A stretch of DNA of 53,796 nucleotides, taken from contig NZ_AOIN01000044.1 in the NCBI RefSeq assembly GCF_000337135.1, positions 84,014-137,809 of the forward strand, given 5' to 3'. This document shows positions 19,775 to 24,681 of this stretch, one piece after another (positions within the stretch are counted from its first letter, which is position 1; the number at the start of each line of letters is the position of its first letter). The notes beneath the pieces were generated by a model. The model did not search any database, had not been told where the DNA came from, and worked only from the letters and a program-made list of their open reading frames with translations. The position numbers were made by a program, and so were the translations under genes. Origin of the DNA: Natrialba chahannaoensis JCM 10990 (GTDB lineage: Archaea > Halobacteriota > Halobacteria > Halobacteriales > Natrialbaceae).

Positions 19775-22459
19775 TCACTCGGACAACTGCTCTTGCCACT
19801 CCTGTACCTTCGACATCAGCTCAACCGGCGGCGTCGCGTTCACGTCGAGGTCACCAAGGTCCTCGAGTACCGCCTCGGTCTCGGGGTCGAGCGCACTCTC
19901 GTCCGTCGTGTCGTCCGGTTCACCACCGTCCGCGTTCGCCGGCCCGCGGAACTGGCCGCTTCCCACGTCGAACACCGTCTGGACAGGCTCGGTCGTGTGT
20001 CCGCCTTTCGCCTCGATAGCCTTCTCCTCGCGGAGGCGCTCGAGGACATCCTGTGCGCGGTCGACGACAGGGCCGGGGACGCCCGCCAGATCGGCGACGT
20101 GAATTCCGTACGAGCGGTCCGTTGGACCGTCGCGGACGGTTCGGAGGAAGGTCACGTCGCCATCGCGCTCGTCCGCCGCGACGTGGACGTTAGCGACGCG
20201 CGGCAGGTTCTCCGCGAGCCCGGTCAGTTCGTGGTAGTGCGTTGCGAACAGCGTTTTCGCTGCGACTTCGTTGTGCAGGTACTCGGTGGCCGCCCAGGCA
20301 ATCGAGATGCCGTCGTATGTCGCCGTGCCGCGGCCGACTTCGTCCAGGATGACCAGCGACTCATCGGTCGCCGTATGGAGGATGTTCGAGAGTTCACTCA
20401 TCTCGACCATGAACGTCGACCGGCCCTGTGCGAGTTCGTCGAGCGCGCCGACGCGGGTGAAGATGCCGTCAACGAGACCGATTTCGGCCTCCTTCGCCGG
20501 GACGAAACTCCCGATCTGGGCCAGCAGAACGATACAGGCGACCTGGCGCATGTAGGTCGACTTCCCGGACATGTTGGGACCGGTGACGACCAGGAAACCT
20601 CGCTGCTCGCCGTCCAGTCGGACATCGTTCGGGACGAACTCGGTCGTCTGCTCGACGACAGGGTGGCGACCCTGGTCGATGTCGAGCGCGTCACCGTGGT
20701 GCAGGTCGGGCTTGACCCACCGATTCTCGGCCGCGTGGGTCGCCAGACTCGCCAGCGCGTCGACCGTCGCCAGCGCCCGGCCCACGTCCTGTAGGAGTTC
20801 TGCTTGCTCGGCAACTTCCTCTCGTAACTCTTCGAAGAGTTCGTACTCGAGTTCCCCTCGTTTCTCCTCGAGTCGGAGCACGTTGCGTTCCTTCTCGGCT
20901 AGCTCGTCGGTCGTGAACCGCTTCGAGTTCTTGAGCGTCTTGATCTGCTCGTAGTGGTCGGGGACGCCGTCGGCGGCGGACTTGCCGACCTGGATATAGT
21001 AGCCGTCGGTCTTGTTCCGGTCGACGGTGACGTGTGAGAGAGAGTACTGGCGCTTCTCGCGTTCGGCAAGCGTGCCGAGCCACTGCTTGACCTCCTCGTG
21101 GCGGTCGATAACCTCGTCTAACTCATCGTCGTAGCCGTACTGGAAGAGCTCACCCTGGGTAACCGTCGACGGGGGGTCCGAAGCGATGGCGTTCTCGAGT
21201 GCCTCTCGAAGCTCGCGTGCAGCCTTGCGGTCCGGCCGGTCGATGATGTCAGCGAGCGGCGAGTCAGCCAGGTCTGGCGTCGATTCAATTGTCTTCGCGA
21301 GCGCCGGCAGCACGGCGAGCGTCTCACGAGCTGCGACGAGGTCGCGAGCGTCTGCGCTGCCGTGGGTTGCCTTCGAGGCCAGCCGCGCGAGGTCGTAGGC
21401 TTCACCAAGGGTGTCCTGCATCTCGTCGCGAGCGAGCGCGGCCGAGGCGAGCGCGGCAACGCTCTCCTGGCGCTGTTCGAGGGTGTCGAGTGCGCGTCGG
21501 GGGCGCTGGAGCCACTCCTTGAGGAGTCGGCCGCCGGCGCTGGTCTCGGTGTGGTCGATCGTCGCGAACAGCGAGCCGTCGCGCTCGCCCTGCATCGTTT
21601 CGGTCAGCTCGAGGTTGCGCTGGGTCGTCGCGTCGAGGGTGACGTGGTCGTCTCCGTGGTGGGACTGGATCCGCGTCATCGAGGCGAGCACGCCCGCGCC
21701 GGTCTCCTCGACATACGAGAGGATCGCGCCCGCGGCGGCGATGGCTTCCTCACCGACCGCCAGTCGGTCGACGGTCTCGCTACCGAACTGTTCCTGCACT
21801 GCGTGGTCGGCGCGCTTCGGTGCGAACGCCTCCGTCTCGTGGAGTGTCAGCGTTGCGTCGATGCGCTCTCGAACGGTACCGAGCAGGTCGTCGTCAGTTC
21901 GGCTCTCGGGTCCCGGGAGCACTTCGACGGGATCGAACCGGTAGAGTTCCGTCAGCGCCTCGTCGGTGTCCGCGGCTTCGGCGACGAGGAATCGGCCCGT
22001 GGTCACGTCGGCGAAGGCGAGGCCGTAGTGCGCGCCGTTGGCCGCGGAGCCGGAGCTGGAGCCGCCGTCGACCACCGCCGCCAGATACTGCGCATCTGCG
22101 TCGCTCGTCTCGAGTAGCGTCCCCGGCGTCACGACGCGGACGATCTCTCGCGCATGGCCAGAGTCGGTTTCGTACTGGTCGGCGACGGCGACCCGGTAGC
22201 CGCGCTCGACTAAGGCCTTGAGATACGGCGTCAGATCGTCCAGTGGCACGCCGGCCATCGGGTACGACGAGCCGTGTGAGGACTTTTGAGACACTTTGAG
22301 ATCGAGTTCATCGCTGACCGTTTCTGCGTCCTCGCCGAAGAACTCGTAGAAATCGCCACACTGCATCGCCAGCAACTCCGCGTCGGTGCCCTCCTTGAGC
22401 GAGAAGAACTCCCCGACGATGCCCGTCGCCTCTGTCATACTCGGTGCCTGGCTTTCCAT
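19775..22459 (-). CDS. mutS: DNA mismatch repair protein MutS
   Basis: The 894-aa protein begins MESQAPSMTEATGIVGEFF. ATG 22438 (MTEATG) is an equally plausible start. The mismatch-binding domain has the Phe-x-Glu element in CGDFYEFF. Connector, lever and clamp regions follow. The ABC ATPase has Walker A GPNMSGKST near 626, Walker B LVILDEVGRGT and the FATHYHELT region. It recognises mismatches and recruits MutL. A Gly/Asp-rich linker precedes a small C-terminal helix (MSKVQEWQEQL). Its gene is 4 kb from mutL on the same strand but not in one operon. Confidence 0.96.
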   Translation of the reverse strand: MESQAPSMTEATGIVGEFFSLKEGTDAELLAMQCGDFYEFFGEDAETVSDELDLKVSQKSSHGSSYPMAGVPLDDLTPYLKALVERGYRVAVADQYETDSGHAREIVRVVTPGTLLETSDADAQYLAAVVDGGSSSGSAANGAHYGLAFADVTTGRFLVAEAADTDEALTELYRFDPVEVLPGPESRTDDDLLGTVRERIDATLTLHETEAFAPKRADHAVQEQFGSETVDRLAVGEEAIAAAGAILSYVEETGAGVLASMTRIQSHHGDDHVTLDATTQRNLELTETMQGERDGSLFATIDHTETSAGGRLLKEWLQRPRRALDTLEQRQESVAALASAALARDEMQDTLGEAYDLARLASKATHGSADARDLVAARETLAVLPALAKTIESTPDLADSPLADIIDRPDRKAARELREALENAIASDPPSTVTQGELFQYGYDDELDEVIDRHEEVKQWLGTLAEREKRQYSLSHVTVDRNKTDGYYIQVGKSAADGVPDHYEQIKTLKNSKRFTTDELAEKERNVLRLEEKRGELEYELFEELREEVAEQAELLQDVGRALATVDALASLATHAAENRWVKPDLHHGDALDIDQGRHPVVEQTTEFVPNDVRLDGEQRGFLVVTGPNMSGKSTYMRQVACIVLLAQIGSFVPAKEAEIGLVDGIFTRVGALDELAQGRSTFMVEMSELSNILHTATDESLVILDEVGRGTATYDGISIAWAATEYLHNEVAAKTLFATHYHELTGLAENLPRVANVHVAADERDGDVTFLRTVRDGPTDRSYGIHVADLAGVPGPVVDRAQDVLERLREEKAIEAKGGHTTEPVQTVFDVGSGQFRGPANADGGEPDDTTDESALDPETEAVLEDLGDLDVNATPPVELMSKVQEWQEQLSE

Positions 22460-22601
22460 CGCAAAAACCCTGCGGGATCCGTAGTGGAAGTGATGCACCA
22501 CTGTACACATTGGCGTCGATCGACCCGTTATCGGTCCGGTCGGCTACCGATCACACGCAGTGTACGACAGAGAGAACGCCTTAAGTTCGAGAAATCGGTA
22601 G

Positions 22602-24104
22602 TTAGATGTCCTCGGCTTCTTCGACTGCTGCCAACTCATCCAGCGCATCGATGATGTCCATCACCTGTCCGTTCGCCTCCTCGTTCGCCTCGGCCAGCGT
22701 CTCCGTTTCGGCCGCAATCTCGTCTGCGTTCTGCATCACTTCATCAGCCATACTGGCGACTTCTTCAGTACTCGCAGCTTGATCGTCGGTCGCGGCCGCA
22801 ACCTCGTCGATGCCGGACGCCGACTCCTCGATCGCTGATTCGATCTCGTCGAGGTTATCGACGGTTTCCTCGACGAGTTCGACGCCGTCCTCGATCTCCT
22901 CGTTCGCCTCTTCGAGGCTGTCGACCGTCTCCTCAGTATCCGCCTGAATCTGGTCGACCATCCGTTCAATCGTGGCCGCCTCCTCCTGGGACTCCTCGGC
23001 TAAAGACTTGACCTCGTTCGCGACGACCGCGAAGCCGTCGCCCGCTTCACCGGCAGTCGCCGCCTCAATCGAGGCGTTCAACGCAAGCAGGTTCGTCTGG
23101 TCGGCGATGTCGTTGATCACATCCACGATTTCGTCGATCCGTTGGACACCCTCCCGAAGCTCCTCGACATCCGACGTAACTTCTCCCGCCGCGTCGTTGA
23201 CCCGTTGCATCTTCGAAATCGCCTCGTTGGCCGTCTCCGTCGTTTCGGTCGTGACCTCCGCCGCGCGTTCGGTGGTCGCGCTCACCTCCTCCGTGTTCGA
23301 CGCGATCTCCTCAACGGTCGCGCTGAGATCGGACAGTTCGCCCGCAATTTCCGCTACCGAGGCCGACTGTTCGTCTGTGACATCGCTGATCTCCGCTGTC
23401 CCGTCGTTGATCCGATTCGCAACTGTCGCGAGTTCGTCGAGACTGTCTTCGAGATCCGTCCGAATTGCCTCCCGTCGCTCAGCGTGCTGCTCGAGTTGGG
23501 TCGCTCGCGCCGCGGTTCGCGTCTCGACTGCGAGGTGCTGGTCCATCGCGGCCACTCGAAGGAACGAAAGCGACCGGGATGCGGTTTCCTGGACGGCTTG
23601 CTCAACGGTTTCGGTTGTAACATCACTATCGTCCTCGGCATCACCCGCTGTGTACGTCGCTGCGACATCGTCTGCGATTTCGGACAGGATGCGCTCGTAG
23701 TACAGTCCAAACGAACTGACGTAGGTCCCGAGTCCGGCCTCGAGGAACGGATCGATGCTGGCCGACTTGGCGCGGCGCTCGAAGAACTCGTGATCGTACT
23801 CGCCATTACCGAAGCCACGGAGATAGGCGCGCTGTGCTCGGACAAACTGGTCGTCACTGATCGGTTGCTCATCGATCGCATCAGCGACAGCTTGCTGCCC
23901 CGATACCGCGTCGTGGTACGCCGCGGCGAGGCCGGCGCTAACATCCTCGAAGAGGTCATTCATCGACTCGAGTACCTGTTCGTCCTCTCGGTCGAACCCG
24001 ACGAACTGCTTTAGGCGGTCGATCTCTGCGCGGTCGACAGTTACATCCTGACGTGCCCCAGCGCCGTCCGATTGAGATACCGCTGTGCCGCTGTTCAATG
24101 ACAT
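22602..24104 (-). CDS. HemAT-like soluble taxis transducer lacking the heme-ligand His
   Basis: The 500-aa protein has no transmembrane helix. Residues 25-150 align with the globin domain of haloarchaeal HemAT. The segment [17 protein letters not shown] aligns without gaps to the RxRIxxIHxxLGLG element that carries the proximal heme His; here Asp118 stands in its place. Residues 200-490 are an alanine/glutamate-rich coiled coil with the conserved signalling hairpin ([21 protein letters not shown], about 330-350), which binds CheA/CheW. It should signal to the flagellar motor, but probably does not bind heme in the usual way. ATG 24104 is chosen; GTG 24110 is also possible. Confidence 0.9.
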
Positions 24105-24129
24105 ATCCACATGACTAGTCGTCTGTGAG

Positions 24130-24345: not shown

Positions 24346-24681
24346 TCAGAACAGCAGTCCGCCGAGCGGTACGTCCACGTCACAGTCCGGTTCGACCAGT
24401 ACCGGATACTCCTCCTCGTCGGGAACGCCGACCGTCAGCGCCTCGGATTTGAAACCTGCAATACGGACGGTACCAAGGTTCGTCGCGCACAGTACGCGCC
24501 GGCCCTCGAGTTCCTCTGGCTCGTAGTGGTGGTCGTACTGTGCCGCAGACTGGATCTCACCGTGTTCTTCACCCAGGTCGATCCAGAGCTTGGTCATTTT
24601 GGGTTTGTTCGCTTCCGGAAACGTCTCGGCCTCGAGTATTTCGCCGACGCGAATCTCGACATCGAATGGATTCTCGACCAT
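24346..24681 (-). CDS. tRNA-binding OB-fold domain protein (CsaA/EMAP-II like)
   Basis: The 111-aa protein begins MVENPFDVEIRVGEILEAET and contains the EMAP/CsaA OB-fold. FPEANKPKMTKLWIDLGE and VLCATNLGTVRIAGFKSEALTVG are typical of the tRNA-binding domain found in CsaA and at the end of MetRS. It probably binds tRNA or acts as a small export-related chaperone. The start is set at ATG 24681 because the family sequence begins there; the frame continues to 24774 with a basic Ser/Pro-rich stretch. It lies 95 bp downstream of thiDN on the same strand. Confidence 0.88.
   Translation of the reverse strand: MVENPFDVEIRVGEILEAETFPEANKPKMTKLWIDLGEEHGEIQSAAQYDHHYEPEELEGRRVLCATNLGTVRIAGFKSEALTVGVPDEEEYPVLVEPDCDVDVPLGGLLF

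Follow-up and report, generated by a model that had tools for sequence, protein, structure and literature searches.

What does a globin-coupled chemoreceptor respond to when the histidine that ligates its haem has been replaced by an aspartate? The question is raised by a gene on the reverse strand (22602..24110) of a 53,796-nucleotide stretch of the Natrialba chahannaoensis JCM 10990 genome (contig NZ_AOIN01000044.1, positions 84,014 to 137,809), hereafter the window. Its open reading frame is intact and encodes a cytosolic, HemAT-like receptor of 502 amino acids from a GTG start, or 500 from an ATG at 24104, which lacks the proximal His and which we refer to as D-type. The likeness to HemAT, proposed in a first-pass annotation, was borne out by profile searches, with matches to Protoglobin (PF11563; residues 28-201, E=4.9e-11, 43.3 bits against a cut-off of 25) and MCPsignal (PF00015; residues 292-459, E=6.6e-45, 153.5 bits). 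Among sequences with a solved structure, HemAT-Bs (1or4) comes closest, at E=0.0088 with the single sequence and 7.2e-5 with a profile of the D-type. The order of sensor globin and signalling domain is thus that of HemAT-Bs and HemAT-Hs. The sensor domain, together with the beginning of the helix that connects it to the signalling domain, occupies residues 21-206 (23493..24050, reverse strand), and the MCP signalling domain lies at 22734..23237 on the same strand. The latter is complete, as had been claimed, and its hairpin tip does not differ from that of L001, a canonical HemAT encoded in the same genome.

An alignment without gaps places Asp120 (codon GAT, 23751..23753, reverse strand) on His123 of HemAT-Bs, at the proximal position F8, and on the corresponding His of the two canonical HemATs that this genome encodes, which confirms the substitution described in the first-pass annotation. 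The Asp118 named there is the same residue counted from the ATG, which lies two codons after the GTG. The surrounding segment of EF loop and F helix (residues 107-127; 23730..23792, reverse strand) replaces the canonical motif RARIGKxHDMLDLGP. The genome carries three further protoglobin chemoreceptors, paralogues of the window receptor, two of which have a normal F-helix motif (RARIGKIHDML in L001 and RARIGKLHELL in L002); the third, L004, is also devoid of the proximal His.

The AlphaFold2 model of the D-type sensor domain is a confident globin (pLDDT 88.5, pTM 0.86) and carries no ligand. Helix boundaries are nearly equal in the models of the D-type and of its canonical paralogue, and among solved structures both models resemble HemAT-Bs (1or6/1or4) and other globin-coupled sensors most closely. 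In the model the F helix spans domain residues 97-105, with the Asp at domain position 100. The claim that the globin fold is otherwise preserved therefore stands for the predicted fold, but not for the haem pocket, where several more residues differ as described below.

In order to find out whether the substitution defines a subfamily, the family (125 genomes) and the order (392 genomes) were searched for relatives, and 164 haloarchaeal sequences were aligned. At F8, His was found in 139 of them, Asp in nine, Ala, Gly, Glu or Pro in 15, and Tyr in one (L053), whose sequence is incomplete at the edge of its locus. The nine Asp genes, the window's included, come from five genera of Natrialbaceae (g1, g4, g5, g10 and g20), so that a subfamily sharing this residue does exist; in the sensor domain, the window receptor shares 88-89% identity with its orthologue from the close relative Natrialba sp. 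SSL1. A sequencing error or a variant private to one strain was rejected, since the same Asp recurs in nine genes of five genera. In a maximum-likelihood tree calculated without the F-helix columns, for which support values are rough because the bootstrap had not fully settled, all 24 sequences with Ala, Asp, Glu, Gly or Pro form one clade (100/100), exclusively of Natrialbaceae. Within it the D-type is a clade of its own (96/92), with the Ala/Gly/Glu/Pro genes (hereafter A/G/E/P group) as its sister (100/99). The D-type was nested among haloarchaeal HemATs in this tree, from which RsbR itself was left out. No D-type gene was present outside the Natrialbaceae among the best-scoring matches of the 392 genomes of the order, where every non-Natrialbaceae sequence retrieved for the alignment had His, and among 393 genomes drawn from the phylum no sequence outside the family reached a D-type-level score. 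The clade as a whole has a single origin and is specific to the Natrialbaceae. We found no published description of HemAT or protoglobin receptors without a proximal His in haloarchaea, in a literature search covering few subscription journals, which is weak evidence that the D-type clade is new; the genome paper of Natrialba magadii refers to no more than a hemAT-type aerotactic transducer (PMC3403918).

The haem pocket has changed beyond the proximal His. Its key residues in HemAT-Bs, according to a 2026 review, are His123, Tyr70 and Thr95 (PMC13401364). The column counts that follow come from related sequences, for which Fisher tests overstate significance. Tyr70 is kept in 138 of 139 canonical haloarchaeal sequences, in 5/9 of the D-type and in none of the 15 of the A/G/E/P group. 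Thr95 is kept in 93/139, 0/9 and 0/15, respectively, and is Glu or Ala throughout the D-type. The window receptor has lost both members of this distal pair (His at the Tyr70 position, Ala at that of Thr95), and it shares the loss of the proximal His with the other D-type receptors, all of which have Asp. Two further positions have changed in all nine D-type sequences: that of Phe69 (Phe in 138/139 canonical sequences) is Tyr, and that of Leu92 (Leu in 139/139) is Phe or Val. The F-helix motif RxRIGKxH is gone as well. The residues aligned with Phe69-Tyr70 of HemAT-Bs, on the distal side in helix B, are Tyr65-His66 in the window receptor (23913..23918, reverse strand), of which Tyr65 is invariant in the D-type while position 66 is Tyr, His or Thr. 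An earlier reading from a small alignment, according to which the invariant Tyr was the retained Tyr70 of helix B, was rejected, as the larger alignment puts it at Phe69. Along with Tyr65, the D-type has Asp120, Phe122, Gly126 and Leu127 as invariant residues of its own.

A globin without its proximal His can in principle still take up haem. The first-pass annotation had allowed for sensing through haem, or for another residue that binds it. The latter suggestion found no backing in the alignment, where the nine D-type globin domains share no position with His, Cys or Met. Candidates for a substitute proximal His in the window receptor, at positions 66, 107 and 192, were rejected since all three vary within the D-type (Tyr/His/Thr, His/Pro/Arg and Gln/His, respectively) and none aligns with F8. 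One form of the idea would have haem ligated from the distal side, for example by the invariant Tyr65 or by His66 of the window receptor, while Asp120 lies on the vacated side; the receptor would then be a sensor of gas or of ferric-haem type. Tyr65 does replace an almost invariant Phe right beside Tyr70 of the distal pocket, and His66 is found in both the window and Natrialba SSL1. Unusual ligation is also on record for sensor globins, in a site-swapped globin with Lys-His ligation, but that structure retains a His ligand (PMC4476040). With position 66 variable, no potential ligand of the His, Cys or Met kind shared by the family, and Thr95 replaced in most members by Glu, an uncommon residue in an apolar haem cavity, we regard haem binding through another ligand as quite improbable. 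Given the lack of a shared His, Cys or Met and the joint replacement of Phe69, Leu92, Thr95 and RxRIGKxH, loss of haem is the simpler reading of the alignment, and sensing through haem is not favoured. The point against it is that the haem site is incompletely erased, with Arg113 kept in 9/9, Tyr133 in 8/9 and Tyr70, as stated above, in five. Compared with HemAT, then, the D-type would probably bind no haem and not sense oxygen directly.

Could the gene simply be decaying? Its presence is patchy, with D-type genes in 2/7 genomes of the window's genus and 3/6 of genus g10, which is what a functionless paralogue, or an artefact of annotation or sequencing, might look like. However, all nine open reading frames are free of internal stops, the same Asp is found in five genera, and both halves of the protein are under purifying selection. 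In close D-type pairs the dN/dS of the globin domain is 0.139-0.195, against 0.142-0.161 in canonical HemAT pairs and 0.32-0.37 in the A/G/E/P group; that of the MCP half of the D-type is 0.04-0.07. The D-type sensor domain is thus under purifying selection. The genomic position is likewise conserved. In the window the gene is flanked upstream by a gene for a CsaA/MetRS-C-like tRNA-binding protein of 111 aa (24346..24681, reverse strand) and downstream by mutS (19775..22510, reverse strand; recognized by its GPNMSGKST motif), both named from their sequences and used here as markers of the locus. The csaA-like gene adjoins the D-type gene in four genera (g1, g4, g10 and g20), and where mutS was read, in the window, Natrialba SSL1 and Haloterrigena salina, the D-type lies between the two. 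In genome G011 it is ~3.4 kb away from csaA. No receptor remnant was found between csaA and mutS in five Natrialba genomes without a D-type gene. Decay or artefact is therefore largely refuted, and we give it hardly any weight. The conserved neighbours, and the absence of remnants where the D-type is missing, fit an old locus with clean losses.

The csaA-mutS interval of those five genomes takes two forms. In two of them (G044 and G045; loci L189 and L188) mutS starts ~10 bases after csaA, and in the other three (G042, G043 and G047; L190-L192) a gap of ~0.9 kb that contains no receptor remnant separates the genes.

The D-type may alternatively have kept its place without sensing anything, as a receptor that only signals or serves as a scaffold in mixed arrays, where it would set the bias, possibly as a heterodimer with canonical HemAT. 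The identity of its MCP tip with that of the same-genome canonical HemAT is compatible with this, and so is the location of the sister A/G/E/P group: in the window's genome, as in other Natrialba genomes, it lies within a che cluster, near a canonical HemAT. Against it, selection constrains the D-type globin domain as strongly as the canonical one, and the D-type domain has the invariant residues of its own listed above. In three D-type-bearing genomes of the Haloterrigena group (G024-G026; genus g10), moreover, no protoglobin gene other than the D-type exceeds the Pfam cut-off; the weaker protoglobin matches in these genomes score ~18 bits and lie in short open reading frames. An obligate partnership with canonical HemAT is therefore not supported, and the D-type can act without a haem-bearing HemAT. 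CheW-domain genes are present in all nine genomes that carry a D-type gene, including these three. On balance, we consider a receptor without sensory input improbable. The unchanged output half and the CheW-domain genes are most simply explained by a functional chemoreceptor that no longer takes haem-bound oxygen as its input. The suggestion in the first-pass annotation that the protein senses something other than oxygen is thereby supported, as probable.

We therefore favour, as the probable reading, a haem-independent chemoreceptor derived from HemAT, and we infer that haem is absent, that the changed haem site acts as the input site for a non-haem stimulus, and that the receptor couples to CheA. 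The D-type would have arisen by duplication of a haloarchaeal HemAT, with haem ligation lost on the stem of the Natrialbaceae-specific clade, and would have retained the globin fold, the long G and H helices and the connection with the MCP coiled coil. The vacated and remodelled site, with Asp120, Tyr65, Phe122 and Glu or Ala for Thr95, may then have become the input site for a haem-independent stimulus. Candidates would be a small molecule or an ion bound in the former haem cavity, or a physical signal, for instance a buried acidic group taking up a proton. A change in the packing of the F, G and H helices would be passed to the MCP hairpin; from the hairpin the signal would reach the archaellum motor by way of CheW and CheA, as it does in HemAT. 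More tentatively, and with somewhat more doubt than belief, we posit that the haem pocket of an oxygen sensor has here turned into a binding or protonation site around a conserved Asp and Tyr, by which a stimulus new for globins directs archaeal swimming.

A precedent for such a loss is Bacillus RsbR, a sensor globin in which His F8 is replaced by Ala and which no longer binds haem (PMC4476040), whereas related proteins of other bacteria have retained the haem residues (PMC4976288). The N-terminal non-haem globin of this stressosome protein resembles the D-type in having lost both the proximal His and distal residues among haem-keeping relatives. The D-type likewise joins a sensor-globin fold, by prediction, to the loss of the haem-ligating His. 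In contrast to RsbR, with its STAS output and Ala at F8, the D-type has an MCP output, an invariant Asp and an origin among archaeal HemATs. By analogy, the D-type would represent the same kind of event as the haem loss of RsbR, in an archaeal chemotaxis receptor. The MabR/PucR-type protein of Mycobacterium, which we liken by description, also has an N-terminal globin-like fold, but is a transcription factor with another output; the paper discusses non-haem globins (PMC11617747). The D-type thus appears to be a further case beside RsbR in which a sensor globin lost its haem ligand and selection was maintained, here with a chemotaxis output. As D-type genes pass the Protoglobin cut-off, and are then normally read as oxygen-sensing HemATs, that assignment can mislead. 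Haem-type paralogues often share the cell with the D-type, and the question of what a haem-less globin sensor reads becomes approachable in haloarchaea.

The A/G/E/P receptors of the Natrialbaceae share clade and MCP output with the D-type, but differ from it in the weaker constraint on their globin domain and in the loss of Tyr70 in 15/15. Their representative in the window's genome, L004, has Gly at F8 and, unlike the D-type, sits in a che cluster (contig C100, 77800-83800; L004/L047), in the order cheW-domain gene, His-less HemAT, cheW, canonical HemAT. At 22.4 bits it falls just under the Protoglobin cut-off, so that a census by this cut-off undercounts the A/G/E/P group. The MCP halves of L004 and the canonical HemAT of this cluster are 76% identical (dS 0.65) and the globin halves 31% (dS 1.27); since the former are more alike than the latter, this suggests gene conversion of the output half. 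In the Natrialba SSL1-like genome G046, an A/G/E/P-type receptor (L046, 1407-3037) is split into two frames near residue 458, through either a frameshift or a sequencing error.

A different type of His-less receptor was observed in genus g9. Four genomes (G019, G018, G020 and G022; loci L213, L214, L215 and L216, respectively) carry a globin-MCP gene beside a canonical HemAT; in its product Tyr occupies the proximal-His position (RAKAGERYEQMG) and the MCP tip is altered to EAADSGQTGDRF. These receptors may share the loss of His with the main clade, as a tree that holds all His-less genes together, the Tyr-type included, was not rejected (p-AU 0.70).
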